A DNA stretch of 64,000 nt, from NCBI RefSeq assembly GCF_039555335.1, contig NC_092631.1:2542001-2606000 (forward strand), in the 5' to 3' direction. The translations under genes and the position numbers were made by a program. Positions 9,066 to 64,000 of the stretch are shown here, piece after piece; within the stretch, counting starts at the first letter, position 1; every line of letters starts with the position of its first letter. This DNA comes from Amphiura filiformis (lineage: Eukaryota; Echinodermata; Ophiuroidea; Amphilepidida; Amphiuridae). Under the pieces are notes generated by a model, which worked only from the letters and a program-made list of their open reading frames with translations, searched no databases and was not told the origin of the DNA.

Positions 9066-9212
9066 TGCTTCTAGGTATTCATTGCATGCCTGGATGTCAC
9101 ATGTTTATATTATGCGCCATTCCAAAAGCATGCAGAAAACATCAATAACCATACTGTATTTTTTGTTGTAGAAAAAGCCTTTTCAAACGTCTGACAATTC
9201 AAGTACTCTTAC

Positions 9213-10288: not shown

Positions 10289-10310
10289 CTGTAATAAAAT
10301 ATATAGAGAG

Positions 10311-10467
10311 AAATATAATATAATATAATATAATATAATATAATATAATATAATATATATTATATTATAATATAATATAATATAATATAATATAATATAA
10401 TATAATATAATATAATACTAAATAATAATATAATATAATATTAACTAATAATAAAATATAATATAAT
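10311..10467. repeat. (TATAA)n microsatellite
   Basis: About 160 bp of TATAA units with a short inversion of the unit near 10355-10370 (TATATATTATATTATAA). It lies about 20 bp upstream of exon A1 in the transcribed direction. A matching tract sits at the same position relative to exon A2 (12161-12312), so it predates the duplication. Confidence 0.9.
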
Positions 10468-11034
10468 GTCACCACTATATAAAAATAACATAAATAAAAC
10501 TTACACAATTTGAATTCAATATCTGTTCCAGTTAATGTTCTTATTTGTTGTATGAGGTCTACTTTTTAAAGAAACAATACCGAAATTTATAATACATTTT
10601 ATCAATGTCCATGAAAAAACATTTTGTCTGTTGGTTGGGGTTAGGATCCCAAATTTGTAAAGACCCCACCTATAGACAGTGAGTAATGCACGTGTACGTA
10701 CGCAAGATGCGTCACCACTGCTTGTTATATGTGACAGAAGAGGCATTTTGAAGTCAGGTCCCATAGCTGAAGTGGCTCCTAAATGACCTTTGACTCCAAT
10801 TCTTTGTACAACATATAGACACGGGCTAGAGCCGATATGTGCAAGTGCCAGTATTGTACTATGTAATTTGCGGAAGCAGCGCCATCTTCCTCTTAGGTAT
10901 TCATTGCTTGCCTGGGTGTCACATGTTTATATTATGCGCCATTCCAAAAGCATGCAGAGAACATCAATAACCATACTGTATTTTTTGTTGAAGAAAAAGC
11001 CTTTTCAAACGTCTGACAATTCAAGTACTCTTAC

Positions 11035-11319
11035 CTTGCGTGCTGCAAAATTCCCATTGAGTGTTGCTACTACCCCAACCAGATGCTATACCAACATATT
11101 TCACATCCTCGGGTTTCACATCCTCTGAACAATACGGCGTGGATATAAATGCAGGTTGCCCAACTCGACCAACTAGTAGTAGATTAGTGCCGGGAACAAA
11201 TTCAACGAAAAATTCTCTTGCCTCGGTTGTACTCAACACATTGGGAGTGTCGAATCTGGTCCATTGCTGGTGTGAATTGCATAATACTGCCGATCCTTGA
11301 TTGTTCCATCCACCAATAA
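11035..11319 (-). CDS. FAMeT-like domain exon B2 (C-terminal half of module 2)
   Basis: Same structure as exon B1, displaced by exactly 1822 bases, with the same splice sites, 285-base length and phase-1 borders. The protein differs from B1 mainly at a Gln-to-Leu change (TNLLLVGRVG) and a GQPAFIS segment where B1 has GQDPFIS. The YVGIASGWGSS signature is intact and the frame is open throughout, so it is not an obvious pseudogene. It could be spliced in series with module 1 or be an alternative to it. Confidence 0.85.
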
Positions 11320-11921
11320 CTTAAGACAAAAATAACAATAACAATAATAGTTCACAACATTTACAATGTGCAGAATAGAAAGGTTCCTAAACGGAACCCA
11401 CTGGTAGTGGTTACGCCACTGGCAACGATCCGTTATATTTGCCGCTAAATTGAACGTCGAGACTACAGGCTGTGACTAGACGAGAGTACAAGCAGATGAC
11501 AGTTCAAACATGGCTGATAGCCTACTCCGGGAGCCTACTACTGAAGAAGATCCTCGATTTCAGCTGTTTGAAGAAGATAAAACAATGGATTTTGTTGCCA
11601 GTTCTTACAGTAAAAGCAGCAAGAAAGAAGGGACGTATAGTGAGGCTAATTCCAGTGTATGATGACCTTTTGAGTTCCCATGCAATTTTTTTAACTATCA
11701 ATGAACAAAACATATATATAAATGAAGGATATAAAAAAATGTAATGCTTCTTTCGAGGCTCCGTGTTAAGACTATTGGTCTTTGGTGACATAAATTCCCA
11801 GTTACCTCGGGCCAGATAGCTTTAACTACTTTTTTTTTCTCAAGCCAGTATACTGCCGCCAATTTTAGCAATTCGATTACTAATTGACACGCGATGAAAT
11901 ATTTCACCTCATACAACCTAC

Positions 11922-12143
11922 CTATTTTTATTACACCTTTGTCTTGTTCTCTATCATTGGCTAGACCGTCGTTTGTCGGAGACAAAAGAATGTAAGCATC
12001 ATTATGTCCTGTGACTTTAAAGGTAATCCGTTCAGTACCAGGAGGAAGTTGTGGAAAGGGATATTGAAAATCCGAGTTCTGTACCCTTCTTGACCCATAA
12101 CTTTCGACAGTTTGTTCTAAGCACGTCTCTGCAGTTTCTGTTT
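11922..12143 (-). CDS. FAMeT-like domain exon A2 (N-terminal half of module 2)
   Basis: Second copy of exon A1 with intact acceptor (ATTGCAG) and GTAGGTT donor. It is 222 bases, six longer than A1, because the acceptor AG lies two codons further upstream; it begins TETAETCLEQ. The ND-x-x-IxLSP block is present (YILLSPTNDG) and the exon ends KGVIKI before the phase-1 donor. The region around it is duplicated from about 10885 to 12380 relative to 9066-10540. Confidence 0.85.
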
Positions 12144-12160
12144 CTGCAATAAAATGTATA

Positions 12161-12312
12161 TAAAATATAATATAGTATAATATAATATAGTATAATATAA
12201 TATAATATAATATAATATAATATAATATAATATAATATAATATAATGCAATATAATAAAATACTAAATAATAATATACTATAATACTAATCAATAATAAA
12301 ATAAAATATAAT
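12161..12312. repeat. (TATAA)n microsatellite, second copy
   Basis: Paralogous to 10311-10467 but without the internal inversion. It forces long Tyr/Ile/Leu-rich open frames on the minus strand that are not genes. Confidence 0.9.
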
Positions 12313-12384
12313 GTCACTACTATATAAAAATTAAAATTAATAAAACTTACACATTTTGAATTCAATATTTGTTAAAGTTATGAG

Positions 12385-15210: not shown

Positions 15211-15958
15211 TGCACAAAGTACAACGAATTGGTTTGTGACCGAATGCAAGACATCAAATATACAGATTTGGTTATGGAGAAAATCATTTGGCCAATTTTT
15301 TGTACATCAATATACAGGGTTCGAATTGGCATGTGGGCGATTTGGTTTGGGGCTGAATAGTATCGATATCGATATTGATATTTTTACAGAGCACGTGATA
15401 TTTCGATATGATGATTCGAATTGTCACGTGATCGTCGAGGTGTCAGTTCTGCAGGAACTGACACAAAAAAATCCTGAAGAAGGCTAGAGACTGGACCTTC
15501 CTGATGGATGAGGAGCACAAGGTGATCTTAGACTAACCACAGACTATTCGATGCAAACCTTAAAATGCGTAACAAACGTTAATAATTAATTGACGGGTGT
15601 GTGCATCCTAGGTCGCCGGTCGAACAGTAGCGTGACCGGGGTCTCGACATTGCCTTATGAACTCTCGCCCTCCTGATAATAACCTTTAGACACTGGCAGG
15701 AAATGACAGGAACTCACATGACAGGAACTCACATTTCCTGTCATGTGACAGGACTGACTCACATTTCATAATGACCTTTGTATGACCTTTGAACTCCAGT
15801 TGGTAACTTAATATTTATGGCTCGTGTCACATGTCAGGTTTGGATCATTGATGCTGGTTTTTCTATCAACCACGATCATTGCAATAGTTTATCTTTGTAT
15901 TAACCGTTCCAGCCACATAATTTTTAAAATAAATATCAAGAGTGTTATCACGACTTAC

Positions 15959-16234
15959 CTGGTTCAAGGTCCCAGTCCCCACAGAACTTAAAGCTGCCTT
16001 CGCTTCCCCAGCCAGTAGATATTCCGACATAATTAACGTCAATGCTGCCTGTGTTTTGGAAGCTCATGACAGATGTCTCATCACTAAATACCTCCACCAA
16101 ATCGTCTCCAAATGACACACGAAACTGACGATATTCTGTGGCGCTCAAAATCGCGGGGGTATTCGGAAAGACTAGGTTTTCGCATTGTTTGCAAAGACGA
16201 ATAGATGATTTCTGGTTTCCCCAACCTCCAATTA
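15959..16234 (-). CDS. FAMeT-like domain exon B3 (C-terminal half of module 3)
   Basis: A 276-base exon between a TTTCTGCAG acceptor and a GTAAGTCG donor, phase 1 on both sides. It starts VIGGWGNQKSSIRLCKQC, continues SATEYRQFRVSFGDDLVEVF and ends NYVGISTGWGSEGSFKFC then GDWDLEP. All Methyltransf_FA signatures are present. Cysteines in the LCKQC and FCGDW segments may form disulfides, fitting an extracellular module. Duplicated at 20335-20610. Confidence 0.87.
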
Positions 16235-16806
16235 CTGCAGAAACAATGAAGGAAATATATTATTGTATCCTGTCGTAAAAAATATTGGTTATTCTCTCTC
16301 AAAAAGTGATAGGGAATAGGGATTATAACATTTTATAGATATGTCTGCATAATTGGTAGCCATCAGTTTACAGTGAACAATGAGGGGAATATTAGTCGTT
16401 ACAATAATCATGATAATTGATCAATCTCTCTCAAAAAAGTGATAGGGAATATGGATTATAAACATTTTATAGATATGTCTGCATACAGGCTGTATCAAAA
16501 TGATTGGTACCCATCAGTTTCCAGTGATATGGACATGACTGTCACAGCAAAATGCAACATAGGATTCTCATAATTTGTTGATTAATTAAACAGACATATA
16601 GGGCCTAACTACGGTATATATTGTGATCATTTCAAGAAGACTCTGTACTGCATTTGGAAGAAAGAGACTTTTCAATAACCATCAAAACTGACTGGTACTA
16701 ATCACTTTCATACAACCTGTACTTCCTCGAAGCATGAGAACTCTATTGCTGTTGAACTCTATTTTTATACCCAAACGCAGAAAAAGTCCGCTGATTTTCA
16801 ACCTAC

Positions 16807-19763: not shown

Positions 19764-20109
19764 TATCGTTCTTTTTATGGAGCTCTTCCAATTCAACAAA
19801 TTACATACCTCAATTTTTCCTAAATAATTAGTTATAAAATGTTAAACTAGAACTAGTTATAATTTTTATAATTTTCGTATTTCACATATTGAACTATCTT
19901 AGATAATTCGGTATGTGAAAACTATGATTTTCCTGATATCGTTCTTTTTATGGAGCTCTTCCAATTCAACAAATTACATACCTCAATTTTTCCTAAATAA
20001 TTAGTTATAAAATGTTAAACTAGAACTAGTTATAATTTTTATAATTTTCGTATTTCACATATTGAACTATCTTAGATAATTCGGTATGTGAAAACTATGA
20101 TTTTCCTGA
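19764..20109 (+). repeat. Two tandem 173-bp copies
   Basis: The block starting TATCGTTCTTTTTATGG at 19764 repeats at 19937 with no difference I could find across 173 bp. A third partial start (TATCGT) closes the array at 20110. Identity implies a very recent duplication or an assembly duplication. Confidence 0.9.
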
Positions 20110-20282
20110 TATCGTATTTAAAGTGCATTTCATCTAGAGATAGACCAGTATGCATGTATGTGATGCGTATAAAATCACGTCACCTTTCGCGAAATCGAGA
20201 TAGCCCCAAGATAGGCCAGTATTATGATGAACATTTATATGGGATAGACCGAGATAGAACTGTATGCAACGTTATCATTAAT

Positions 20283-20320
20283 CACTCCTGATATTTATTT
20301 TTCAATAAATATCAGGAGTG
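20283..20320. repeat. Perfect hairpin at the duplication edge
   Basis: Arms CACTCCTGATATTTATT and its exact reverse complement AATAAATATCAGGAGTG are separated by four bases (TTTC). The right arm is the first part of the duplicated FAMeT segment (15930 has AATAAATATCAAGAGTG), so the hairpin straddles the duplication breakpoint. Confidence 0.85.
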
Positions 20321-20334
20321 TTATCACGACTTAC

Positions 20335-20610
20335 CCGGTTCAAAGCCCCAGTCCCCACAAAACATAAAGCTGCCTTCGCTTCCCCAGCCAGTAGATATTC
20401 CGACATAATTAACGTCAATGCTGCCTGTGTTTTGGAATCTCATGACAGATGTCTCATCACTAAATACCTCCACCAAATCGTCTCCAAATGACACACGAAA
20501 CTGACGATATTCTGTGGCGCTCAAAATCGCGGGGGTATTCGGAAAGTCTAGGTTTTCGCATTGTTTGCAAAGACGAATAGATGATTTCTGGTTTCCCCAA
20601 CCTCCAATTA
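20335..20610 (-). CDS. FAMeT-like domain exon B4 (C-terminal half of module 4)
   Basis: Duplicate of exon B3 with the same 276-base length, splice sites and phase-1 borders. Differences are few: VMRFQN for VMSFQN, FMFCGDWGFEP for FKFCGDWDLEP, and an Asp where B3 has Val in the ENLxFP segment. Family signatures are intact. With exon A4 it is the most upstream module found in the direction of transcription. Confidence 0.87.
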
Positions 20611-21112
20611 CTGCAGAAACAATGAAGGAAATATATTATTGTATCCTGTCGTAAAAATTATTGGTTATTCTCTCTCAAATAGTGATAAGGAATAGGGATT
20701 ATAACATTTTATAGATATGTCTGCATTATTGGTAGCCATCAGTTTACAGTGAACAATGAGGGGAATATTAGTCGTTACAATAATCATGATAATTGATCAA
20801 TCTCTCTCAAAAAAGTGATAGGGAATATGGATTATAAACATTTTATAGATATGTCTGCATACAGGCTGTATCAAAATGATTGGTACCCATCAGTTTCCAG
20901 TGATATGGACATTACTGTCACAGCAAAATGCAACATAGGATTCTCATAATTTGTTGATTAATTAAACAGACATTTGGAAGAAAGAGACTTTTCAATAACC
21001 ATCAAAACTGACTGGTACTAATCACTTTCATACAACCTGTACTTCCTCGAAGCATGAGAACTCTATTGCTGTTGAACTCTATTTTTATACCCAAACGCAG
21101 AAAAAAACCTAC

Positions 21113-21613: not shown

Positions 21614-22142
21614 ATGTGACCGTCCACCCCAAACCGCTCGTAAAGTCGGCAAATTGTATTCTGAGTTAAGGTTGGTGCTACATGTTTCTCATTTTGCTAG
21701 TTCCAGTCAAACACCTTTTAATCCTATTGATGAAGAGGATTATTAGCTTCTACTTATGTATAGAATTCGTAAATAGCTCTAGTCTTTGTTTGCTTTGGCT
21801 AAATCCTGTTCAAGTGGTTTGTTAACCAACAATTAACAGTGAGAGGACATTCCTGAACCTCGTTGACTTGGAGATGATTTGAAGTGACCGCCAATTATGA
21901 CCATTTGATATTTAATACCAGCAATGTGGAAAAAGAGAAATAATGTAGCACCGAAATAATGTACCTTTTTGCTGAAGGAGCAAAGTTAAACAAACCATAA
22001 CACCGCTTCTGGATATCGTTTGAAATCAAATTATATATCATTATTGTAAAGCTTATGATAAATTATATATTGTCTAAACAAGGAAGAAAACAAAATTGAC
22101 CAGGGGCCGACTTTACCAGCGTTTCGTGGTGGACGGTCACAT
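21614..22142 (-). mobile_element. MITE family 1, full copy, inverted
   Basis: Bounded by TGTGACCGTCCACC and GTGGACGGTCACAT, the best-preserved ends in the window. The interior reads as the reverse complement of the 2744-3322 copy. Length about 530 bp, no coding capacity. Confidence 0.85.
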
Positions 22143-22647
22143 ATACCTTGACTTAAACAGTCCGGTCCGACTGACTGCCCAGGAAACATTGCTGGGCCAG
22201 GTAAAATATAGATTTTGGTAACTCTTCCGAATTGGCTAAGGTGATTTTATAAAAGATCGGCGAATATTTTACTTGTACACACATGAGCTATATATAATTT
22301 GCCCATTTTTCACCGGGAGAAATAAAATTTCACCGGGAGGAAAATAACTTAAACACCAAAACCATTTCTAAAGGTTTTTTGAAAATTTAATTTAAATATG
22401 CAAATTACCTTTATTCTAATTAAAATTGATGAAAAAATACCACTGATTGTACATCTATTGACAATATTATGTATTTTACCTACTTCTTTATTACAAGAAA
22501 TAACGATCTATTAAAATATTCTATTTGAAATAGAGCATTGCATTGGGGGATATCATAGGCCTATTGCCTGCCCGGGCAACATCACGAATACATCGCCCTT
22601 ATTGCGAATACCGAGAATTCAACAACAGAGGCCTATAAACTTTTGAA
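22143..22647. other. No gene recognised
   Basis: AT-rich intron or intergenic sequence with a short local repeat of TTTCACCGGGAG near 22308-22340. No exon with flanking splice signals and a conserved motif was seen. Confidence 0.35.
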
Positions 22648-26484: not shown

Positions 26485-27545
26485 GACTTATTTATTTTAT
26501 TTTATTTATTCGTTATTTATTCAGGAAATTCCATCAATACAAATGTACTGGTCTCCCTGGAAGACCTGATTAAAATTATATATATACATAATACATGAAC
26601 ATGATAATAACAAAATAAGAAATATATATATTATACAAAATGAAAGAACCAAACATGCATGATACAAAACAAAATGCAGCAATGTTGAGCTCAAAATATA
26701 AATACAAAACTTACAGACCAATATTGCATTTTGAATCCACCCAAACTCATTGAATTAAAATTGATACGAAGATTTGGAGGAAGATTGTTCCAAGCAACTG
26801 AAGATCTGTAAAGGAAAGTTTTCTTTCCAGAAGAGGTTTTCCATATTGGAACAACCAAACTGTTTTGAGACTGACCCCTTGTACATTTGGAATGCGTAGA
26901 ATGAGTGAAAGTAAAATGAGACGAAAGATAATGAGGAGCAATTTGTGTGAGACATTTAAAAGTTAAAATAAGTAATTGATGCTCCCATCTACAGCCAAGT
27001 TTAACCCAGTCTAGGTCCCTCATCATATTGTCTACTGAAGTTCTAATGTCTGCAGAGAGCAAAACACGGGCTAGCCTATTATGCAAAATTTGGAGCTCAT
27101 TTTTGTGACAGGCACTGAAATTGGACCAAACAGAACTGCAGTAGTCAAAATGAGGAAAGACAAGGGCTTGCGAAAGCATTTTGACAGTTTTCCATGGAAG
27201 GTATTGCTTTACTCTACGAATAACTCCTATACGCTTGGATATGTTAGAAGATAAATAATTTACATGTTCATTCCATGATAGATGTGAATCAAAGGTAATT
27301 CCTAAATATTTATACTTTTCCACTCTTTCAATTCGTTCATTTCCATAGACAAGAGAAACATTGATAAACTTATGAAGAGCTTGTCTTGTTCCAAATAACA
27401 TCAGTTTAGTTTTCTTTATGTTAAGAGTTAAATTTTTGGCCTGGAACCAATCAGCAATGTTATTCAGGTTAGCATTAAGATCATTTTGCAGAATATTGGG
27501 ATCAGATGAACTAAGTAAAAGAGTTGTATCATCAGCATACATTAC
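26485..27545 (-). mobile_element. 5'-truncated LINE, reverse transcriptase C-terminal part
   Basis: A 283-codon open frame (27542-26691) starts at the catalytic YADDT motif and continues with NIADWFQAKNLTLNIKKTK, YLGITFDSHLSWNEHV, an FDYCSSVW segment and LQILHNRLAR, the fingerprint of CR1/L2/jockey-type LINEs. All upstream RT motifs and the endonuclease are missing, so the copy is truncated at YADD. The minus-strand 3' end has an AATAAATAACGAATAAATA-type tail (plus 26488-26521). The frame is intact over 280 codons, suggesting recent insertion. It cannot mobilise itself. Confidence 0.9.
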
Positions 27546-27589
27546 ACACTTACAGTGATTTCTATATTAACAATAGATACTTATGCTAT

Positions 27590-36277: not shown

Positions 36278-36409
36278 AATCAGAATCTGTTAATATTTAA
36301 TAACTTTATAATGATATTATTTTGGTCAATAGTAAGTTTCCTTATAGCGGCATCCATGGGTCACGTGCGATTTTTTTTAATACATCAAGTCAGCATTCAA
36401 CTGGCTTAA
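36278..36409 (+). repeat. Direct repeat, copy 2 (element B follows)
   Basis: Near-identical to 35844-35973, ending GGCTTAA immediately before the B terminus GGGAGCGCAACACTAAAT. It gives the non-array flank of the leftmost B copy. Confidence 0.85.
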
Positions 36410-36882
36410 GGGAGCGCAACACTAAATCACTACGCATTTTATGTAAGAACGAAATTCGGCTAATATAGTCCATAGTGAGTATGAGATTGTAGCGACCATA
36501 TCTACCGACATGTTCACTTTAAATCACTCAATATCAGCTCATATGAATTCGACAAGTGTCTTCAATGATAACATGCAGAAAAAACCGGACATTTTATCTC
36601 AAAAGCAATTCTCTGTGGCGGATGAAGACAACTTCCGATTTTGAAATGTGAGTGGTGAATTTAGTATATTTTTAGGCCATATTTTTTTTTTTTTTTTTTA
36701 GCGAAAAAAAGTCAACGGTCATCGATATATGCCGACAAAAGTTTTGGAATCTACAGAAACAGAGCTTTAATTTGATACTAAATTTATTTTGCCAAGTATT
36801 GCAGGGACGCCAGGAATGGCGCTCGAAGTAGGCCAAAATCACACGTTATCCTATGGGACGCTTATTTAGTGTTGCGCCCCCC
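36410..36882 (+). mobile_element. Element B, copy 1
   Basis: Inverted-repeat element of 473 bp with ends GGG(A/G)GCGCAACACTAAAT and ATTTAGTGTTGCGCCCCC. Non-coding, with a variable poly-T run near 36685-36700. The left flank is unrelated to the array unit and the right flank is the start of unit A1 (TTGTAACGG). Confidence 0.9.
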
Positions 36883-38174
36883 TTGTAACGGCCGTCATTA
36901 TGAACGCGTTCTTTTTACATTCTTCGCGTAAAATAAGAAATGCGCGTCATGAAATGTGTTCTATTTCAATCATGATGATAAACAAGAACTACGAAAAGTC
37001 ACCCTGATGAATTATAATTGGGAAAAATGCTTTATTGGCCGAGCAGGGGCCTGCAAAGTCTAGAAATTGTATCCAAAAATCTTCAAAAAGGCTCAAAAAT
37101 GGGTTTTAAAGTTAATAGGCATTGTTAATCTGCATGAAGCCGTTTTGTTGCATATTCAGTAGGCCTATGCAAAAAGATCATAATTGTTACTACTGAAACA
37201 GGGGTGGTGATTGTACTTCACACTCATTAACAAGTGCTTTCCAAAACAAAATGGCAAGACAGTTAATCTAGAAAAGAAATTAAACTTGGTTCAAAGACGT
37301 GCTTAAATTGTTGTCTGTCACTAGTTTTAGTGAGTTTTGTGCAAACTCTCGCATATTGGAGGAAAAGTCGAAATATTCGATTTTCCGCGTTTCGGCACTG
37401 ATCTTTAAAACAACATATCTCTTGAACGAAATGTCGCAGAGACATGAAATTTTCGGTGTTGAGCTACAAATTTTCTCTAATTTAATTAATAAGTGACAAA
37501 TGTGGATTTTGAAAACTTTTAAATCCTTGTAACGGCCGTCATTATGAACGCGTTCTTTTTACATTCTTCGCGTAAAATAAGAAATGCGCGTCATGAAATG
37601 TGTTCTATTTCAATCATGATGATAAACAAGAATTACGAAAAGTCACCCTGATGAATTATAATTGGGAAAAATGCTTTATTGGCCGAGCAGGCGCCTGCAA
37701 AGTATAGAAATTGTATCCAAAAATCTTCAAAAAAAAAAAAAATGGGTTTTAAAGTTAATAGGCATTGTTAATCTGCATGAAGCCGTTTTGCTGCATATTC
37801 AGTAGGCCTATGCAAAAAGATCATAATTGTTACTACTGAAACAGGGGGTGTTTGTACTTCACACTCATTAACAAGTGCTTTCCAAAACAAAATGGCAAGA
37901 CAGTTAATCTAGAAAAGAAATTAAACTTGGTTCAAAGACGTGCTTAAATTGTTGTCTGTCACTAGTTTTAGTGAGTTTTGTGCAAACTCTCGCATATTGG
38001 AGGAAAAGTCGAAATATTCGATTTTCCGCGTTTCGGCACTGATCTTTAAAACAACATATCTCTTGAACGAAATGTCGCAGAGACATGAAATTTTCGGTGT
38101 TGAGCTACAAATTTTCTCTAATTTAATTAATAAGTGACAAATGTGGATTTTGAAAACTTTTAAATCCTTATAAA
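36883..38174 (+). repeat. Array units A1 and A2 (about 645 bp each)
   Basis: Two directly adjacent units start TTGTAACGGCCGTC at 36883 and 37527 and end GAAAACTTTTAAATCC. They differ at scattered bases and in a poly-A run (37732-37742). Each unit contains the same overlapping 60- and 65-codon frames on opposite strands. These repeat because the DNA repeats and I do not call them genes. Confidence 0.92.
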
Positions 38175-38645
38175 GGGGGCGCAACACTAAATCACTACGC
38201 ATTTTATGTAAGAACGAAATTCGGCTAATATAGTCCATAGTGAGTATGAGATTGTAGCGACCATATCTACCGACATGTTCACTTTAAATCACTCAATATC
38301 AGCTCATATGAATTCGACAAGTGTCTTCAATGATAACATGCAGAAAAAACCGGACATTTTATCTCAAAAGCAATTCTCTGTGGCGGATGAAGACAACTTC
38401 CGATTTTGAAATGTGAGTGGTGAATTTAGTATATTTTTAGGCCATATTTTTTTTTTTGCGAAATAGCGAAAAAAGTCAACGGTCATCGATATATGCCGAC
38501 AAAAGTTTTGGAATCTACAGAAACAGAGCTTTAATTTGATACTAAATTTATTTTGCCAAGTATTGCAGGGACGCCAGGAATGGCGCTCGAAGTAGGCCAA
38601 AATCACACGTTATCCTACGGGACGCTTATTTAGTGTTGCGCCCCC
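38175..38645 (+). mobile_element. Element B, copy 2
   Basis: 471 bp, same termini as copy 1. Left flank AAATCCTTATAAA, right flank TTGTAACGG. The uninterrupted A-A junction reads AAATCCTTGTAACGG, so the flanks suggest a target duplication TT(A/G)TAA. Confidence 0.9.
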
Positions 38646-39294
38646 TTGTAACGGCCGTCATTATGAACGCGTTCTTTTTACATTCTTCGCGTAAAATAAG
38701 AAATGCGCGTCATGAAATGTGTTCTATTTCAATCATGATGATAAACAAGAACTACGAAAAGTCACCCTGATGAATTATAATTGGGAAAAATGCTTTATTG
38801 GCCGAGCAGGGGCCTGCAAAGTCTAGAAATTGTATCCAAAAATCTTCAAAAAGGCTCAAAAATGGGTTTTAAAGTTAATAGGCATTGTTAATCTGCATGA
38901 AGCCGTTTTGTTGCATATTCAGTAGGCCTATGCAAAAAGATCATAATTGTTACTACTGAAACAGGGGGGGTGATTGTACTTCACACTCATTAACAAGTGC
39001 TTTCCAAAACAAAATGGCAAGACAGTTAATCTAGAAAAGAAATTAAACTTGGTTCAAAGACGTGCTTAAATTGTTGTCTGTCACTAGTTTTAGTGAGTTT
39101 TGTGCAAACTCTCGCATATTGGAGGAAAAGTCGAAATATTCGATTTTCCGCGTTTCGGCACTGATCTTTAAAACAACATATCTCTTGAACGAAATGTCGC
39201 AGAGACATGAAATTTCGGTGTTGAGCTACAAATTTTCTCTAATTTAATTAATAAGTGACAAATGTGGATTTTGAAAACTTTTAAATCCTTATAA
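38646..39294 (+). repeat. Array unit A3
   Basis: Full unit followed by element B copy 3. It has a one-base deletion in the ATTTTCGGTG stretch (ATTTCGGTG), which shortens the plus-strand frame seen in other units and argues against protein-level constraint. Confidence 0.92.
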
Positions 39295-39763
39295 GGGGGC
39301 GCAACACTAAATCACTACGCATTTTATGTAAGAACGAAATTCGGCTAATATAGTCCATAGTGAGTATGAGATTGTAGCGACCATATCTACCGACATGTTC
39401 ACTTTAAATCACTCAATATCAGCTCATATGAATTCGACAAGTGTCTTCAATGATAACATGCAGAAAAAACCGGACATTTTATCTCAAAAGCAATTCTCTG
39501 TGGCGGATGAAGACAACTTCCGATTTTGAAATGTGAGTGGTGAATTTAGTATATTTTTAGGCCATATTTTTGCACCGCGAAATAGCGAAAAAGTCAACGG
39601 TCATCGATATATGCCGACAAAAGTTTTGGAATCTACAGAAACAGAGCTTTAATTTGATACTAAATTTATTTTGCCAAGTATTGCAGGGACGCCAGGAATG
39701 GCGCTCGAAGTAGGCCAAAATCACACGTTATCCTACAGGACGCTTATTTAGTGTTGCGCCCCC
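39295..39763 (+). mobile_element. Element B, copy 3
   Basis: 469 bp. The central poly-T seen in copies 1 and 2 is replaced by TTTTTGCACCGCGAAATAGC. Flanks match copy 2 (CCTTATAA on the left, TTGTAACGG on the right), so copies 2 and 3 probably spread by duplication of an A-B block rather than by independent insertion. Confidence 0.9.
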
Positions 39764-42106
39764 TTGTAACGGCCGTCATTATGAACGCGTTCTTTTTACA
39801 TTCTTCGCGTAAAATAAGAAATGCGCGTCATGAAATGTGTTCTATTTCAATCATGATGATAAACAAGAACTACGAAAAGTCACCCTGATGAATTATAATT
39901 GGGAAAAATGCTTTATTGGCCGAGCAGGGGCCCTGCAAAGTCTAGAAATTGTATCCAAAAATCTTCAAAAAGGCTCAAAAATGGGTTTTAAAGTTAATAG
40001 GCATTGTTAATCTGCATGAAGCCGTTTTGTTGCATATTCAGTAGGCCTATGCAAAAAGATCATAATTGTTACTACTGAAACAGGGGGGTGATTGTACTTC
40101 ACACTCATTAACAAGTGCTTTCCAAAACAAAATGGCAAGACAGTTAATCTAGAAAAGAAATTAAACTTGGTTCAAAGACGTGCTTAAATTGTTGTCTGTC
40201 ACTAGTTTTAGTGAGTTTTGTGCAAACTCTCGCATATTGGAGGAAAAGTCGAAATATTCGATTTTCCGCGTTTCGGCACTGATCTTTAAAACAACATATC
40301 TCTTGAACGAAATGTCGCAGAGACATGAAATTTTCGGTGTTGAGCTACAAATTTTCTCTAATTTAATTAATAAGTGACAAATGTGGATTTTGAAAACTTT
40401 TAAATCCTTGTAACGGCCGTCATTATGAACGCGTTCTTTTTACATTCTTCGCGTAAAATAAGAAATGCGCGTCATGAAATGTGTTCTATTTCAATCATGA
40501 TGATAAACAAGAATTACGAAAAGTCACTCTGATGAATTATAATTGGGAAAAATGCTTTATTGGCCGAGCGGGGCCTGCAAAGTCTAGAAATTGTATCCAA
40601 AAATCTTCAAAAAGGCTCAAAAATGGGTTTTAAAGTTAATAGGCATTGTTAATCTGCGTTAAGACGGTTTGTTGCATATTCAGTAGGCGTATGCAAAAAG
40701 ATCATAATTGTTACTACTGAAACAGGGGGTGTTTGTACTTCACACTCATTAACAAGTGCTTTCCAAAACTAAATGGCAAGACAGTTAATCTAGAAAAGAA
40801 ATTAAACTTGGTTCAAAGACGTGCTTAAATTGTTGTCTGTCACTAGTTTTAGTGAGTTTTGTGCAAACTCTCGCATATTGGAGGAAAAGTCGAAATATTC
40901 GATTTTCCGCGTTTCGGCACTGATCTTTAAAACAACATATCTCTTGAACGAAATGTCGCAGAGACATGAAATTTTCGGTGTTGAGCTACAAATTTTCTCT
41001 AATTTAATTAATAAGTGACAAATGTGGATTTTGAAAACTTTTAAATCCGCCGTCATTATGAACGCGTTCTTTTTACATTCTTCGCGTAAAATAAGAAATG
41101 CGCGTCATGAAATGTGTTCTATTTCAATCATGATGATAAACAAGAATTACGAAAAGTCACCCTGATGAATTATAATTGGGAAAAATGCTTTATTGGCCGA
41201 GCAGGGGCCTGCAAAGTCTAGAAATTGTATCCAAAAATCTTCAAAAAGGCTCCAAAATGGGTTTTGAAGTTAATAGGCATTGTTAATCTGCATGAAGCCG
41301 TTTTGCTGCATATTCAGTAGGCCTATGCAAAAAGATCATAATTGTTACTACTGAAACAGGGGGGTGTTTGTACTTCACACTCATTAACAAGTGCTTTCCA
41401 AAACAAAATGGCAAGACAGTTAATCTAGAAAAGAAATTAAACTTGGTTCAAAGACGTGCTTAAATTGTTGTCTGTCACTAGTTTTAGTGAGTTTTGTGCA
41501 AACTCTCGCATATTGGAGGAAAAGTCGAAATATTCGATTTTCCGCGTGTCGGCACTGATCTTTAAAACAACATATCTCTTGAACGAAATGTCGCAGAGAC
41601 ATGAAATTTTCGGTGTTGAGCTACAAATTTTCTCTAATTTAATTAATAAGTGACAAATGTGGATTTTGAAAACTTTTAAATCCTTGTAACGGCCGTCATT
41701 ATGAACGCGTTCTTTTTACATTCTTCGCTTAAAATAAGAAATGCGCGTCATGAAATGTGTTCTATTTCAATCATGATGATAAACAAGAATTACGAAAAGT
41801 CACCCTGATGAATTATAATTGGGAAAAATGCTTTATTGGCCGAGCAGGGGCCTGCAAAGTCTAGAAATTGTATCCAAAAATCTTCAAAAGGCTCAAAATG
41901 GGTTTTAAAGTTAATAGGCATTGTTAATCTGCATGATGCCGTTTTGCTGCATATTCAGTAGGCCTATGCAAAAAGATCATAATTGTTACTACTGAAACAG
42001 GGGGGGGTGTTTGTACTTCACACTCATTAACAAGTGCTTTCCAAAACAAAATGGCAAGACAGTTAATCTAGAAAAGAAATTAAACTTGGTTCAAAGACGT
42101 GCTTAA
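39764..42106 (+). repeat. Array units A4 to A7, last one truncated
   Basis: Units start at 39764, 40408, 41049 and 41684. The A5-A6 junction lacks TTGTAACG (reads AAATCCGCCGTC). A7 stops after TCAAAGACGTGCTTAA at 42106, where unique sequence begins. Units look well above 95 percent identical by eye. Confidence 0.9.
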
Positions 42107-43125
42107 GTTCCCGTAAAATGGTCTGGTTTTACTTGAGCCAGCAGTGTACGATACTTCTGGAAGAGTAAATCAGGTGCATAACATTTTTATATATAACATG
42201 TCATAGGTTGTGCCTGGTAAGAGAGAGAGAGAGAGGGGTAGGGAGGAGGAGAGGAGGGCATTGGAAGTGGACAGGGAGGTGCTTTGCTGGTAGCCAAGGT
42301 GTGGGGGGGCTCCCCCGTGGGACATCTTCTCTTCCTTCTTGACCCTTCCCTTTTGGATGCTGGCCGCCGTGATATTTTACGCTTTTAGGCCTTTTTCTGC
42401 CATTTTAAGCCCATTTTTGTAAAAACGTTTCCCTTTGAGAATCGGCCCACGCCCTCCTAACAGAAAAACCCTGACAAAATCACTGTGGAGGGGGAAACAG
42501 GAGTGCGAGTGGGTAATTATAGGGGGGTCAAGTTTGAGAGAGCGAGTACAGATAGAGGGGAGAAGGAGGGAAAATAAGGAGAATGTAGGGAAGGGGAAGC
42601 AGGAGGGGGGGGAGAGAGATTCAGAAGGAGGGAAAGAAATAAAGAATATGTATTTCATTAGGCTTTGCGAAGTAAATTGGAATATGAAATTGACAAAGCT
42701 GACGAGCCTTTATTAAATAATATTATATATATATAGGCCTATAACTATCGTAAGAATATTAATTGAAACGTATAGGGCCTAGCTAGTTTCAAAATAATAT
42801 GATAAGGAGATTAACGCTGGGTCCCGACATAATCCATGTTGAGTGGTATCGCGAGTTCATTCATGTTTACTCAAACGAAGCTCTTAAGGTAGAGTCTTTT
42901 GTCTTGAAGTGGGACTAATAACCACTTGACTAAACAAAGGAGAGACATTTGGATGTATTCGGTTACAAGCTCTTACACATGCCCTTCTTTTGAACCCACT
43001 TTGATACACATGTCCCGAGTTTAAGCGACAAGACGCTGTTGTTGCAGTAACCAACCATACGTTCGCGTTGGAGTAAATTTGAGCAAGAAATCCAATCGAT
43101 ATTTCTGAAGTTGCCGTTCCAGTTA
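42107..43125. repeat. GA-rich tracts and unannotated sequence
   Basis: Purine-rich stretches (GAGAGAGAGAGAG at 42219-42235; GGAGGGAAAAT-type at 42485-42640) dominate the left half. A 93-codon frame on each strand there results from this bias. The remainder shows nothing recognisable. Confidence 0.5.
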
Positions 43126-43493
43126 AGGTTATTAATTATTTTAAACTGTTGTGATTTGGTAGTTCACAGCATCTTACGAATGGTAGTGAGCTTTGGCAAA
43201 AACTGCATTGCTCAATTCATAGCGAGGGTGTAGAAGAATTAAAATATCACAGATATTATAGGTGCTGCGGTTTTTGAGTTACGTTGTTAAGAGGGCTGAA
43301 ACAACAACACTTTTGTAAAACGTACATAACTCATTAACAACAATAAATTAAGCAAGTTTGCAAAGTGTACGATTTGTAGAAAGAACTTTTGCAAATCATC
43401 AAGGTGTTATTTTTCAATAATATATTGATCTAGATAATGAAAATCGATTTTTAGGTTGCTTCGACCAACAATACCTCGTCTACCCTTAAAGTA
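43126..43493 (+). repeat. Dispersed repeat R, copy 1
   Basis: Runs from TTTTAAACTGTTGTGATTTG through GGCTGAAACAACAACACTTT to CGTCTACCCTTAAA. It is repeated in the same orientation at 48416-48772. No terminal inverted repeats seen. Confidence 0.75.
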
Positions 43494-44795: not shown

Positions 44796-46790
44796 ATTTC
44801 CAACAACTAGAAGTAGAATTGTGAGCAGCATCGTTTATGAGAATCTGAAAACCAATGGGACCGAGTTTCGTGCCCTGAGGTACTCCCCCATGAAGTGGAA
44901 CATAATCTGACAGAGTGTCATTAAAGCGAACACATTGCTGCCTATCATGAAGGAAATCACAAATCCATGGAACGATGGACCCACCGACTACCTAGCGGAT
45001 TATTTTATCAACAAGGATGGTATGGTCGACCAAGTCAAACGCTTTGGAAAAATCCGTTAATACCACCGTTCCAACATTGTGACTTCCTTCTGCGCCTTGA
45101 TGCAGATGGTGAAGAAGGCTAACAAGGTAATGGGATGTTGAGACACCTTTAACATTGCCAAATTGGCGCTCGTCAATTTTATGCTGAATATCATCGAGGA
45201 CCCACCCCGCAACAAAACCTTCGGCAACAGAGGTGAGTGACACTGGTCTCAGTTTTTCAGTAGTGGGGGGGTAGTTGCTTAGGAATAGGCACAACTATTG
45301 CTTGTTTCCATTGTTTTGGAACTTAACCTTCTGAGTAAGAACTATTTATTATATCAGTCAGGGGCACACTCAGTTCATATACAAACTCTTTTACTAACCG
45401 AGGAGGAATTTGATCGGGCCCCGCAGCTTTTTGTGTTTCAACCTGTTGTGAACACTTGGCTTCCACAGGATACACAGATGGTCACTCTTACCAATTGGTG
45501 ACAAAGGAACAGGTTTTTTTGTAGTGAGTCTTGAGCATGTGGTTTGTAGGTAAAAGGTCAAGGGTTGCATCCCCTCTAGTTGGAAAGTCAGTAAGCTGAT
45601 AAGTCATTGCCATTAACAATTTGCTGTATATTCATTCTGTTAAAGTCACCTAAGATAACTATACCAATATCAGGATAACTATACCAATATCAGGATACTT
45701 TGTTCTTAAATAGTCAACAGTCTTTAACAAATGCATCTTAAGTAAATCCTGATAGGGGGAGTCGGTTACAATAAAAACCCAGGAGGGTGAAAGTGCATAG
45801 GAACAATGCCGGAAACTACGTCACGCTATTGTTCGACTTAAACTACATCATTTTTAACCCCTTCCGTTTCCGTTAATACAGCTTTAGTCTCCTCCACCTT
45901 CGCAACACGGTACGTGGAGTGACTGGAATCACAATGACAGCGGAGGAGAATACTGGCTGGTCAGACAATTTAATTCTATCAAGCATATGTGATGCGATCA
46001 AGCAAAATCAGTCGGAACTCGGAAATATTGATTTTGAGATATAGCCAAATAAAAGAAATATTTCCTTTTGTTTCTTCTTGTTTTGGAAACTCTTTAATTG
46101 CTCATATATTTGGAACTGGTTGTTCAATTTCAATGGGGTTTTCTGCAAAATCCAGCTTTGTAAATGTTTTTTACTATCCTGTAAGAAACTGAAAATTTAT
46201 TATTGCCGAGTTCCGACTGATTTTGCTTGATCGCATCACATATAATACCTGAACAATCACCGTCATTTGATCGATTTACTACAGAATATATTGTATACAC
46301 AAAATATAATTTTAAAATTGTAAACCTGTTAACTTATATACTTGTGTACTAAAGTATAAGGACACGTGAATAAAATCATGTAGAAGACAAAATGGCCGCT
46401 AATCCGCCTATTGTCTAGACTTAAACTACATCTTCCGGTTTGTTACGTAATACTAGGATGCCCATCCCTTTGTATCGATCCCTGATAAACCGCGCAAATT
46501 GCTAAAGAAGAAATTCCACGGAGCAGTCTATTAGGGCGAATGTTGACCCAGAGGCATTCAAGTTCATTAGGAACAGGAACATCAATCTCTTTGGCAGGTA
46601 ACTCAGTACTCACGTAGATAGCAACTCCGCCGCCACGTCTTCTGTCCCGACATTGTGAGAACAAATTGTAACCACTTATGCTCAGCTGTTCATCAGGAAT
46701 GTTCGGAGAAAACCACGATTCAGATACAACACCAATGTCCACCTCTTGTTGATCAAATATTATCTCCGCTTCCTCAAATTTCTTCACCAA
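44796..46790 (-). mobile_element. Broken LINE with endonuclease and reverse transcriptase
   Basis: In transcript order: an endonuclease N-terminal part (46790-46443) with DIGVVSESWF, RRRGGGVAIYVS and ELECLWVNIRP; after an interruption, a GIVILGDFN motif near 45650; then RT with AAGPDQIPPRLVKEF, VPKQWKQAIVVPIPK, LRPVSLTSVAEGFVAGWV, TDFSKAFDLVDHTILV and HGGVPQGTKLGP. The order is that of CR1/jockey-type LINEs. It is dead: a stop falls inside the SYSEG-VPKQ segment, another after DKIIR (44992-44994), the YADD region is missing, and about 640 bp at 45800-46440 interrupt it. Part of that interruption is a MITE. Confidence 0.88.
45988..46240. mobile_element. MITE with 36-bp inverted termini and TA flanks
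   Basis: Starts TGTGATGCGATCAAGC and ends GCTTGATCGCATCACA; pairing continues through AAAATCAGTCGGAACTCGG. TA lies on both sides (45986-45987 and 46241-46242). 253 bp, non-coding, inside the interrupted LINE. Confidence 0.9.
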
Positions 46791-47685
46791 TGACTGTGCA
46801 TTTGTTTAAAAGATGGATGGGAGTAATGTTTTGTTTTCAGATGTGACCGGTTGGGAGTGGGATTGATTGAGTGTACAGGGGATATGAACAAGTGATGATG
46901 GGCGAGTTTCTTCACAAGCATAAGCATTATGAGCTAGTAGTGGGGGATGACGATTTCCGCATACAAGAGTGATTTTTTTTGGCTTGTACATGTGTTTTTC
47001 TTTTTGTATCAAACCTAACATTCATTAGAAAATTTGGTCGTTTACCAATTGCCATTAAATTAAACAAACACCAAGGAGTTTTACTCGAGAAGATTCTCGA
47101 TCAACATGTATATCAGTACATAATTTATTTTCTTCATAATTGTATTATATGACACACAAAAAAGCAAGACAATTTAATGAAAGAATATATTTTATAGATA
47201 AGCTTATCGTTAGCAAAATAATTATATTAATTTTTTTCTAATATAATGTCATCAAATTGACATTTAAAACTTGATTAATGAATAATGATTTTAACTTTCT
47301 TGTTATAAACCATCTATTCCAAAATATAATTTCATATTTACACGGATGGAAATTGTTACAGCCTTAACAATGTTGACATGATCTAAACAGTTCACCACAA
47401 AGCTGGAAACGTGGTAGTAAAGTTTGTCAGAGTGCTAGATGCTTTAATTAAGAATCAAGAATGGCATGGGTAATTCCATTGTTTTAAATCATTGGGCCTG
47501 CGTATAAAGGATCATATCAGGGGATGAGTGCCGAGCATCGCTGGGGCATGGACAGTTTTGGAAATAAGTCGGGCCCTCGCCCCTCGGATCAGATGCTCGT
47601 GTATATCCTACCGCCCTTATACGGTGATGCCATTTTGTTGATTTATGAGTCTGACGTCAAAAAAGTACAGTCAAAATGTGTAATC
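46791..47685. other. No gene recognised
   Basis: AT-rich sequence upstream of the LINE endonuclease; it could include a decayed ORF1 region, but no zinc-knuckle or coiled-coil frame was recognised. Confidence 0.3.
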
Positions 47686-48185: not shown

Positions 48186-48337
48186 TTACTCTTTCTTGCT
48201 TCCAGTATTTTCTTTGAGATAAGTCAGTAGATCAGCCCTTTCTTGCTTGTCTTCTTTCAGGTCTTTGAATACCATCTTAGTTCCAGGTATATGTGGTCCT
48301 GTGAAGAATTGCCATAGAGTTTTATCGCCCCAAATAC
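48186..48337 (-). CDS. Cytochrome c, terminal exon
   Basis: Encodes IWGDKTLWQFFTGPHIPGTK then MVFKDLKEDKQERADLLTYL and KENTGSKKE. PGTKM supplies the methionine heme ligand and ERADLLTYLK the C-terminal helix. Trp59 (IWG) is kept. Compared with typical animal cytochrome c, the loop before PGTKM is two residues shorter: NPKKYIPGTKM becomes TGPHIPGTKM, so the Lys72-Lys73 pair is gone. One residue is also missing between Ile57 and Trp59, and one is added near residue 86. The acceptor TTATGCAG joins the upstream exon inside the Gly56 codon, the intron position I recall for vertebrate CYCS genes. Confidence 0.92.
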
Positions 48338-48415
48338 CTGCATAAAATATAAATAAGAACATGATATAATTACATATTAACAAGATATAATTACTGAAAA
48401 TTCTGCTTGCCTATG

Positions 48416-48772
48416 AAGGTTAGCAACTATTTTAAACTGTTGCGATTTAGTAGTTCACAGCATCTTGCGAATGGTGGTGAGCTTTGGCATAAATTGCATT
48501 GCAAGTGTGTAGAAGAATTCAAATGTCACATATATACTTTTGTAGGTCCTGTGGTCCTTGAGTTATGTGGTAAAGAAGGCTGAAACAACAACACTTTTGT
48601 AAAACGTACATAACTTATTAACAACAATAAATCAAGCAAGTTTTCAAAGTATATGATTTGTAGAACTTTTGCAAAACATCAATGTGTTATTTTTCATTTC
48701 AATAATATATTGAGATAATGAAAATCGAATTTTTTGGCTGCTTCAACCAACAATACCGCGTCTACCCTTAAA
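48416..48772 (+). repeat. Dispersed repeat R, copy 2
   Basis: Same order of motifs as 43126-43493, with small indels. It lies inside the cytochrome c intron. Confidence 0.75.
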
Positions 48773-49219
48773 CATGCATGACACAAGCGGTGCGGTGTGT
48801 AGATGATTTTGAGTAGAGTATTTTGTATAAATCAGTTGCGCTTTCTGTTATTTCTTTGCATGCAAGTAGATTATAACACATGCAGAAAATACCATACCAT
48901 TCTTGAATTTAATTCACTTTAAAAACAAATAATACCATTATCTTGTGATCTGATGAGATTATAACATCTTTTTAAAATTTTAATTCTATTCGCCAACGAG
49001 GCTAAAGCTGAGACTTGGGGAGGGGAGGGTGAAATGTGCAGTCCACTCTCAGATGGCACTTTGACGAGCAGGCAAATGGCCCTAATCTGGCTGCACATTA
49101 CCTGTCGATCGCACAGTGCATTCATTAATTGCTTTGATTAATCTTCAAATCTCACAACAAATAATTTAAAACTCGCTGCAGATTTACGGGGTATTTCATG
49201 TTAAACAATACACAAAACA

Positions 49220-49803
49220 GATATGTGATCGTACACAACGAATCAGCTGTTAAGTCGGCACCGGTCAATTTTGTTTTATTTCGTGTTTAGAAAATATATA
49301 TCATAAGCTTTAAAATGGTATATCATTTGACTTCAAACGATATCCAGAAGCGGGGTTATGGATTGTTGAACTCTGCTCCTTCAACAAAATGGTACCTTTT
49401 TTCGGTTCTACGTGTGTCTCTTTTTCCACATTGCTGGTAATAAATATCAAACAGTTATAATTGCTGGTCATATCAAATCATCCTCAAGTCAAAGAGGTTC
49501 AGGAAAGCTCTCATTGTTAATTGTTGGTTATCTAGACAAAATACACTGCTTTGTAACCCTCCACTTGAACAGGATTTAGCCAAAGCAAACAAAGACTAGA
49601 ACTATTTAATGATTCTATAGAAATGGGTAGAAGCTTATTATCCTATTCAGCAATAGGATTATTGATTGGTTTAAACGGTGTAAATGAGATACTTGTCGCA
49701 ACAAATTGAGGTACCTATGAATACGACCTTCACGCACATTTTATATTGTAACTCAGAATACAATTTGCCGACTTTACGGCTCATTCGTAGTGTACGGCCA
49801 CAT
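49220..49803 (+). mobile_element. MITE family 1, full copy in the cytochrome c intron
   Basis: Ends are TGTGATCGTACAC and GTGTACGGCCACAT, a decayed version of the family termini. The interior keeps GGTCAATTTTGTTTTATTTC and TATCCAGAAGCGG. Confidence 0.75.
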
Positions 49804-49980
49804 TTGATCAAAGATACCTCAGAAGACCTGCTAGTCAGAGAGTCCGCTCGTCAGAATTTTGTGAGTCGCGGGGCTGCTGAGTACTGGGCTTTCTGCCATT
49901 TATTTTATAGTATAGATAATTATATAAAAGTGTACTTCAAGGACCAGTGTAATCCCCCACGGATGTGACAGTGAACCTAC

Positions 49981-50189
49981 CTTTCTTTTCATCAGATTGT
50001 ACATATTTGAATCCTGGTGCTGATCCAGCTTGTCTACCCCATAATCCCCATAGGTTTGGACCTCTTTTGTGTCCCCCTTTCTCCTCTAAGCTGTGACAAA
50101 AGGCACAATGTTCTTTGAAGATTATGGCTCCACGTTTGGGGTCACCCACCGGCGCGTCGTCATCGAAAGTCATAGTAGTGGCTGAGATT
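49981..50189 (-). CDS. Cytochrome c, exon with start codon and CXXCH
   Basis: The likely start ATG is at 50173 (MTFDDDAPVGDPKRG), eight bases of context after a TTTTTTCAG acceptor and a short leader, so at least one non-coding 5' exon is expected upstream. The exon encodes GAIIFKEHCAFCHSLEEKGG and HKRGPNLWGLWGRQAG then SAPGFKYVQS. CAFCH binds heme covalently with His as axial ligand; GPNL and Arg38 are conserved. His33-Gly-Leu-Phe36 is replaced by Trp-Gly-Leu-Trp. The mature protein would be 114 residues and would shuttle electrons between complexes III and IV in the mitochondrial intermembrane space. A GTAGGTTC donor ends the exon. Divergence suggests a paralogue, possibly tissue-specific. 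Confidence 0.92.
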
Positions 50190-50309
50190 CTGAAAAAAGA
50201 CAGAAACATGTTGTCTATATCATATCATAGGCTTACAAACTACGGTATGAATTGAATATGTATACTGTACAGCAGAGTCGTAGCCAGGGCCCCGGTGGGA
50301 AAATGTGGC

Positions 50310-62306: not shown

Positions 62307-63680
62307 CTACTGTATAGTTATATCTCTTCCTAATGTGTTCAATCCTTGTGATGGAACTGTAAAATCAAGTAAGAATTTTTCTTTAGCTAAAAGTTTGTAG
62401 CCAAGTAACTCCATAACATCTGCGCATACAGATTGTACCTGCTGTAATTCTTCATTGTTCAAGTAGCGACGCCAATTTGATGCGGCTTTTACGGAGTTTT
62501 TAGAAAGTCCCATGTTGTTATCATTCTGGTATGAAGCATTTGTATTGGTGTTCAGCCATTGGATGACAACCTCTGGGGTCTGAAGTCCAAGAAAAGAGTA
62601 GAGTTCTTTAGCGATACGCTTCGGGTTAGCAGAAAAATCCTCGTACCTTATCAATTTATATCGATTTCTAAGTACATTCGGCTGAAGAAGTGCAAGTTGA
62701 ATGTCGTCATGTAATTGATCACAATACTCATTAATTGATCCTGTCCGACCGATTCGCTTCAAAATATTCAAACTTTTCAATTGAGGCCTTACTTTCAATT
62801 CACCCCGTAAGTATGATTCAAAGTCCATGACAGCAGATCGCCCATAACTCATCATTCGTCGCGAGTTTGCCACACCCCGCGGGTCTCTCACATATTGGAT
62901 GATCTTCACATTTTCATGGTGATCGGTGTTCTCTAGAAACTGTACGACATCTTTTAAAGTAGTTCGAATGGTTTTCGTAGCAACATAACCCTTGTAACTT
63001 AAACACATTTTTCTAAGCATCTGTGCTTGGCTATCAAATTTGGTGTCAGCATTAACTCTAACGACAGAAAGATTTTTTGTAAAATGAACTCCTACATCAA
63101 AGTTAAGAAAAGAAGAAGTAAACCGCTCGGAAAATTCACAGCGAAGAATCCGCTCTAGTAATTTTGCACTTGTATTTTCATAATTCTGATGTTGTCCGTT
63201 GATATCTGCTAAATTATTAAAAACTTTCAATGGTTCGAAAATATAAAACATGTCAGGATTCTTATTGAATAATTGTCCGATGAATGTTGAACCAGTTCGA
63301 TATTGTGCCAAAATGATGACAACTGTCGAGCTGTTTACCAAACCTCTGCTGCTTGGCGTTGCGGATGTAGTCAACCTATCATGTGAAGATAAATGTCGCT
63401 GTAGATTGATGTCGTCATTATCATACCGACCCTGAGTTAGTGTCATTTTACCCAATTCTTGATTCTTGGAAATCCACCATGTTGCAGATATGAGAAAGAG
63501 TATAATTAAGATGGGAATTACCTTTTTTGCCCAAATCATTTCGTAGTTTGTAAATTTCGCAGACAGTTTACTTTTCATGTGGTTTAGCCTGTAGCGAAGT
63601 CTTGATGTGTTATCAGCAACAATTATTGTGAAATTACACCGTAGTGCGGATACGACACACACGGCAACGCAAACCATCAA
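62307..63680 (-). CDS. Carbohydrate sulfotransferase (CHST/Gal-GlcNAc-GalNAc 6-O type), intronless
   Basis: A 457-codon open frame. A better start may be Met35 (63578), which gives the usual type II topology: short cytoplasmic tail, one membrane span (residues 54-71, VIPILIILFLISATWWIS), stem, then a Golgi-lumen catalytic domain. Residues 126-133 (QYRTGSTF) form the 5'-phosphosulfate loop of the PAPS site, with FEPL at 148-151. Residues 262-274 (QYVRDPRGVANSR) form the 3'-phosphate site with Arg265 and Ser273. YEDF (346-349) and the C-terminal SNWRRYL with LGYK are also family features. NSS, NTS, NLS and NAS sequons fit a glycosylated lumenal protein. It should transfer sulfate from PAPS to a sugar hydroxyl, likely position 6, on keratan or chondroitin-type glycans; the acceptor cannot be read from sequence. 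Vertebrate relatives also often have single-exon coding regions. Confidence 0.93.
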   Translation of the reverse strand: MMVCVAVCVVSALRCNFTIIVADNTSRLRYRLNHMKSKLSAKFTNYEMIWAKKVIPILIILFLISATWWISKNQELGKMTLTQGRYDNDDINLQRHLSSHDRLTTSATPSSRGLVNSSTVVIILAQYRTGSTFIGQLFNKNPDMFYIFEPLKVFNNLADINGQHQNYENTSAKLLERILRCEFSERFTSSFLNFDVGVHFTKNLSVVRVNADTKFDSQAQMLRKMCLSYKGYVATKTIRTTLKDVVQFLENTDHHENVKIIQYVRDPRGVANSRRMMSYGRSAVMDFESYLRGELKVRPQLKSLNILKRIGRTGSINEYCDQLHDDIQLALLQPNVLRNRYKLIRYEDFSANPKRIAKELYSFLGLQTPEVVIQWLNTNTNASYQNDNNMGLSKNSVKAASNWRRYLNNEELQQVQSVCADVMELLGYKLLAKEKFLLDFTVPSQGLNTLGRDITIQ

Positions 63681-64000
63681 TCGGTTATAATAATGAAAAT
63701 AATTATCGACCTAACGTTGGTGGCCGCCGTCAGTTTTGCGAATTGTGCCTGTTTTTTTTTAATAATAGGGCAAAGCGCCACCATACGAGTTTGACAAAAA
63801 CCGGAAACGGCGAACTTCTGTGTCCCGTAAGCCATTATATTGGTTGTCGAGAAACTGTCTCCTAATTATTTGATACGGGAAATACTATTTGAAATAGTAA
63901 TGTCGAATTACGACGGAAATGGGTGAAAAAGTATAGGGTCCAAAATCATGATGTGCACGAAATACTTAAAGGACCCAAGGCCCATTTATCCCTAAAGTGT
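63681..64000. other. 5' flank of the sulfotransferase
   Basis: No TATA box at a suitable distance was recognised. Several CpG-containing motifs (GGCCGCCGTC, CCGGAAACGG) occur at 63720-63810. A CCGGAAA site resembles an ETS-type promoter element but is unsupported by other evidence. Confidence 0.25.

Follow-up and report, generated by a model that had tools for sequence, protein, structure and literature searches.

The window, as we call the whole 64,000-nt stretch of DNA that was analyzed, carries on its minus strand a two-exon gene for a 114-residue cytochrome c in which the loop leading to the Met ligand is shortened and has no lysine at position 72 or 73. From its sequence, we think it reasonably likely that the product is a functional, long-diverged mitochondrial-type cytochrome c that docks poorly on ordinary oxidase or vertebrate-type Apaf-1, and that serves another redox partner, or has a slow or regulated role as electron acceptor or peroxidase, beside a canonical copy. 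An earlier note on this DNA had pointed out the unusual loop and proposed a functional paralogue with altered partner binding; its observation was confirmed and its interpretation was partly supported.

A cytochrome c gene with two coding exons

The product matched PDB chain 1ccr, which we take to be rice cytochrome c, at E 2e-31, and scored 42.8 bits against PF00034, above the curated cut-off of 21.3. Together, these values indicate that the cytochrome c match is not due to chance. Identity was 54% to 1ccr and 52% both to 2aiu, presumably the mouse testis-specific cytochrome c, and to 2b4z, which we assume to be a mammalian cytochrome c. In two trees, the protein grouped with eukaryotic rows against 30 bacterial rows with support of 99/96 and 98/96. 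As the earlier note had stated, both heme ligands are intact in the sequence. The CAFCH motif includes His18, and the predicted sixth ligand is a Met in the usual PGTKM context (HIPGTKM). The protein shares with canonical mitochondrial cytochrome c (human 1j3s; plant 1ccr) the PF00034 domain, the CxxCH motif and Met80 within IPGTKM, together with Trp59, Arg38, Tyr48, Phe82 and Arg91, and it is 52-54% identical to the plant and mammalian rows. It differs from the canonical protein in the length of the loop, the lack of lysine at 72/73, the residues at the oxidase contacts (I/E/H/E) and a lower net charge.

Splicing of the two coding exons (Table 1) yielded a single open frame of 114 aa that ends in TAA. 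The vertebrate cytochrome c gene has an intron in the same (Gly56) codon. Within the final 55 bases of the intron the only AG is the acceptor used, and each of the eight other AGs within 150 bases of that acceptor leads to an early stop. The splice sites are intact, as had been claimed. A shifted junction could not restore residues 72 and 73, because both lie well inside the last exon, and this explanation for the deletion was ruled out. The likely acceptor just 5' of the ATG points to a probable non-coding upstream exon. On the other side of the gene, no AATAAA was found within 800 bases 3' of the stop codon; the same 800 bases contain two ATTAAA hexamers, one nearly abutting the stop. A six-frame CxxCH scan detected seven sites in the window, and this one alone was cytochrome c-like, so the scan revealed no second cytochrome c there.

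Table 1. Features of the cytochrome c gene, with positions counted from the first base of the window.
Feature	Position	Strand	Description
Likely splice acceptor TTTTTTCAG	50174..50191	-	AG at 50190-50191, 16 bases before the ATG; predicted from sequence
First coding exon	49981..50173	-	193 bases, running from the ATG at 50173 into the split Gly56 codon (one base); product MTFDDDAPVG...SDEKK
Heme-attachment motif CAFCH (Cys14, Cys17, His18)	50093..50107	-	Identified in the sequence
Intron	48338..49980	-	1643 bp, GT-AG, phase 1, within the glycine equivalent to Gly56
Interspersed repeat copy in intron	49214..49782		80-89% identical to further copies at 2736-3298, 21719-22144 and other sites
Interspersed repeat copy in intron	48416..48772		Other copy at 43125-43490, 83% identical
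Last coding exon	48186..48337	-	152 bases; the remaining two bases of the split Gly56 codon, followed by IWGDKTLWQFFTGPHIPGTKMVFKDLKEDKQERADLLTYLKENTGSKKE and a TAA stop ending at 48186
Trp59-Met80 stretch	48273..48332	-	20 codons vs the usual 22; Lys72-Lys73 gone, His at 74

Other features of the window

Farnesoic acid O-methyltransferase domains (PF12248) are encoded by repeated minus-strand exons at 9202-9498, 11024-11320, 15951-16259 and 20327-20635. These form two pairs within duplicated stretches, one pairing 9057-10534 with 10878-12380 (92% identical) and the other 15920-16597 with 20297-20973 (98%). An array of long direct repeats, 97-99% identical and bearing the same open reading frame fragment, spans 36407-42106; two open reading frames of this array had no Pfam match. 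There is also a perfect tandem repeat of two copies with a 173-base unit at 19764-20115. Probable LINE fragments lie on the minus strand at 26694-27566, 44995-45294 and 46446-46805, corresponding to reverse transcriptase twice and an endonuclease-like piece, with the fragments at 44995-45294 and 46446-46805 falling under the Pfam cut-offs. Finally, a single-exon sulfotransferase open frame occupies 62310-63710 on the minus strand, with PF00685 and PF13469 both above their cut-offs. Taken with the LINE and farnesoic acid O-methyltransferase domains, it suggests that the DNA comes from an animal. Scans of the window for tRNA genes and Rfam families were empty.

The loop before the Met ligand is two residues short

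We counted the residues from Trp59 to Met80 and found 20 in the window protein vs 22 in all 33 comparison rows, which consisted of 1ccr, 2aiu, 2b4z and 30 bacterial homologues (31 rows counted by script, and two bacterial rows missed by its pattern counted separately). The bacterial rows came from searching 398 genomes from a single phylum (that of Shewanella) with a profile, which gave matches in 254 genomes; the 30 loci were drawn from the best of these, and this control leans accordingly to the closest bacterial homologues. When the comparison was made from Trp59 to the C-terminus, all of the best 60 of the 89 PDB rows matched, which are mostly variants of a few species, were one residue longer net than the window protein. 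This difference fits two more residues in the loop and one fewer near position 88.

Alignment to the human, 1ccr and 9msz sequences placed the gap best at positions 72-73 (scores 68/63/64). The next best placement (65/60/61) puts the His at 72 and drops 73-74. Because both placements leave no lysine at 72 or 73, the loss does not depend on the choice between them. The claim that the loop lacks Lys72-Lys73 and is two residues shorter thus stands, and the further claim that position 58 is missing is borne out by the alignment, in which one residue of 57/58 is gone. One residue is added at 87/88, making three indels in total, all in frame.

In a review that aligned 31 sequences from five kingdoms, the highly conserved residues around the heme include both Lys72 and Lys73 (PMC7697256). 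Likewise, work that used 209 metazoan sequences describes Lys72 as conserved through all Metazoa (PMC4445527). This metazoan feature is absent from the window protein. We found no description of an animal cytochrome c with this deletion in the open-access literature searched.

Changes extend across the docking face

When cytochrome c is crystallized together with mammalian oxidase, its contact residues are Lys8, Gln12, Lys13 and Lys87 (PMC5286356). The window protein has I, E, H and E at positions 8, 12, 13 and 87, so the canonical basic residues at 8, 13 and 87 are replaced by I, H and E. The chain 1ccr has Lys at all three of these positions, and 9msz has Lys, Arg and Lys. With 72 and 73 included, six positions of the docking face are altered (8, 12, 13, 72, 73 and 87), two of which, 12 and 87, are now acidic. 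The net charge (K+R-D-E) is +2, vs +5 for 1ccr, +8 for 2aiu and +9 for 2b4z, where the 1ccr and 2b4z rows are partial.

Activation of Apaf-1 has been linked to lysines 7, 8, 13, 25, 27, 39, 72, 86, 87 and 88 (PMC4445527). Three of these ten positions are lysine in the window protein (27, 86 and, by this alignment, 88) and seven are not. We considered whether missing lysines at 7, 25, 39 and 88 should all be counted as losses and rejected this, because 1ccr has no lysine at these positions either. The clear losses among the ten are thus 8, 13, 72 and 87, besides Lys73.

These comparisons indicate that the change to the docking face is wider than the earlier note saw. That note had described the missing lysines as used in binding the oxidase and Apaf-1. 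Lys72 is on the published Apaf-1 list (PMC4445527); in the crystal complex, however, it reportedly lies far from the oxidase (PMC5286356). The phrase "used in binding the oxidase" fits Lys8, Lys13 and Lys87 better, and all three are lost too. The proposal of altered partner binding is supported by inference from the changes at 8, 12, 13, 72, 73 and 87, which go beyond what was claimed. A lack of any role in apoptosome assembly would follow only if the animal's Apaf-1 homologue uses cytochrome c at all.

Tryptophans and core residues

The protein was also said to carry unusual Trp substitutions around the heme face. Trp33 turned out to be ordinary, and we rejected it as a special feature, because the testis-specific chain 2aiu carries WGLFGR. 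Trp36 and Trp65 do differ from the few sequences compared. Mouse has a testis form alongside the somatic form (PMC3196546). The likeness to 2aiu lies in Trp33, whereas the loop of 2aiu is full-length (NPKKYIPGTKM) and its net charge is far higher.

We scored 32 core positions, from a list drawn up after the alignment was seen, and found that 24 are kept. Usually conserved residues that have changed include Asn52, Tyr67, Leu68, Asn70, Tyr74 and Gly84, and changes at these sites could mean relaxed constraint. Replacement of Tyr67 by Phe is tolerated in rodent cytochrome c, for which PMC12248545 reports an oxidase turnover of 15.16 vs 13.28 per second and a Km of 0.6 vs 1.1 micromolar.

Neutral controls argue for selection

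Two neutral controls were used to evaluate whether the gene could have kept its structure by drift. In the first, a mammalian sequence was drifted by substitutions to 53% identity in 4000 simulations. A mean of 16.8 of the 32 listed positions was kept; at least 24 were kept in 4/4000 runs, and at least 24 with no stop codon in 0/4000.

The second control drew its clock from the intron, where 926 of the 1643 bases are interspersed repeats that are 80-89% identical to copies elsewhere in the window. The two exons, by comparison, had no matching copy in the remainder of the window. Six repeat alignments, some of which overlap in part, were pooled and their divergence was halved; for each copy this gave about 0.07 substitutions and 0.012 gap openings per site. 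Assuming that 25% of indels are in frame and that the repeats entered after the gene existed, an open frame with its start and stop was kept in 202/20000 simulations, and CxxCH, Trp59 and Met80 were kept as well in 87/20000. The two controls thus both favor selection during most of the time that the gene has existed, and recent silencing is compatible with them. As for the earlier note's view that the gene appears functional, the open frame, the kept core and the two controls speak for it at the level of sequence.

Origin and alternative explanations

The gene is likely a paralogue, and it could have arisen either as a fast-evolving animal duplicate or as a deeper paralogue. The best tree joined the window protein with two plant rows at a support of 96/85, and a tree that held one plant row gave 99/88. 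Its N-terminus is plant-like, and Gly25 and Gln39 are common to the window protein and plant. These results would fit a gene whose lineage separated earlier than the animals, or one acquired from a plant-like or protist donor, which we nevertheless regard as improbable. Placement with the animal rows was not rejected (p-AU 0.39), nor was a grouping with yeast and the animals (0.18) or a position outside every other eukaryotic row (0.13). The window protein's branch is long (0.71), and the tree held only six other eukaryotic rows, two of which (yeast and Arabidopsis) were provisional sequences. Moreover, the shared Gly25 and Gln39 may be ancestral states. A scan of a genome-contig collection with the protein gave three loci that matched just around the heme motif; none was a hit at E 1e-8, and a cytochrome c profile found nothing at E 1e-5 in the genomes of two of them (0/2). 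Viral contigs yielded no relative. Because these collections are not meant to hold animal genomes, the scans say nothing on rarity among animals.

The gene might instead be a duplicate that diverged under some selection and was recently silenced or is unexpressed, leaving a young pseudogene with an open frame by chance. Of the 32 listed positions, eight have changed, Asn70, Gly84 and Tyr67 among them, and the poly-A signals are poor. The open frame, the clean splice sites and three indels that all preserve the frame speak against this explanation, as do the outcomes of the two neutral controls (0/4000 and 202/20000), with which a recent silencing is still compatible. We consider it unlikely, but deserving of some weight. 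It is rather improbable that the gene encodes the only or main respiratory cytochrome c of a fast-evolving lineage, in which oxidase, bc1 and other partners have changed to match. This idea is consistent with the CxxCH scan, which found no second copy in the window. On the other hand, a plant, mammals, the 9msz chain and the 30 bacterial homologues all share one loop length, and an essential carrier would be unlikely to swap much of its docking face. Lastly, the deletions could have been created by sequencing or assembly error, given that there is a single source sequence; but three indels that all preserve the frame (two codons lost, one codon lost and one codon gained), accompanied by many contact-site substitutions, are unlike read errors, and we find this scarcely credible.

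Discussion

The heme-binding parts of the protein are kept and many docking parts are not. The simplest reading is that electron exchange was retained and efficient docking on the ordinary partners was not. According to our favored model of a functional, long-diverged cytochrome c, heme lyase would still attach heme and Met80 would still ligate the iron, leaving a protein able to carry or accept electrons in the intermembrane space. Its heme-edge face, with I, E, H and E at 8, 12, 13 and 87 and no residues 72-73, would dock poorly on ordinary cytochrome oxidase, and the same changed face would dock poorly on vertebrate-type Apaf-1. The protein may then serve another redox partner or function, slowly or under regulation, as an electron acceptor or a peroxidase, presumably with a canonical cytochrome c encoded elsewhere in the genome.

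Firm ligation by Met80 is not to be assumed, because a crystal of yeast K72A has Met80 off the iron (PMC4962053). By analogy, Met80 in the window protein may be more labile than usual. In the yeast variant K72A/K73H/K79A, His73 replaces Met80 in a pH-dependent manner from pH 5 to 7.5, and His73 ligation at slightly alkaline pH turns on pseudo-peroxidase activity on an electrode (PMC8398203). This laboratory variant and the window protein both lack lysine at 72/73 and carry a histidine in the loop that leads to the Met ligand. In contrast to the variant, the window protein is natural, retains Lys79, and has its His at 74 in a shorter loop. A His74/Met80 switch like that of the yeast variant is possible in the window protein, as a matter of speculation. 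The fuller version of this idea, an old second cytochrome c, kept beside the normal one, that lacks oxidase and apoptosome docking and is dedicated to redox or peroxidase work in the intermembrane space, with His74 vs Met80 as its pH-dependent switch, seems to us distinctly unlikely.

Few proteins illustrate conservation in textbooks as cytochrome c does, and PMC4445527 describes Lys72 as conserved in all Metazoa. A natural protein with the heme site but without the shared docking face would tell the requirements of the fold apart from those of the partners, and would do so in nature and not by mutagenesis. With such a protein, one could test directly how far the length of the Met80 loop is constrained, and which functions cytochrome c has beyond respiration and apoptosis.
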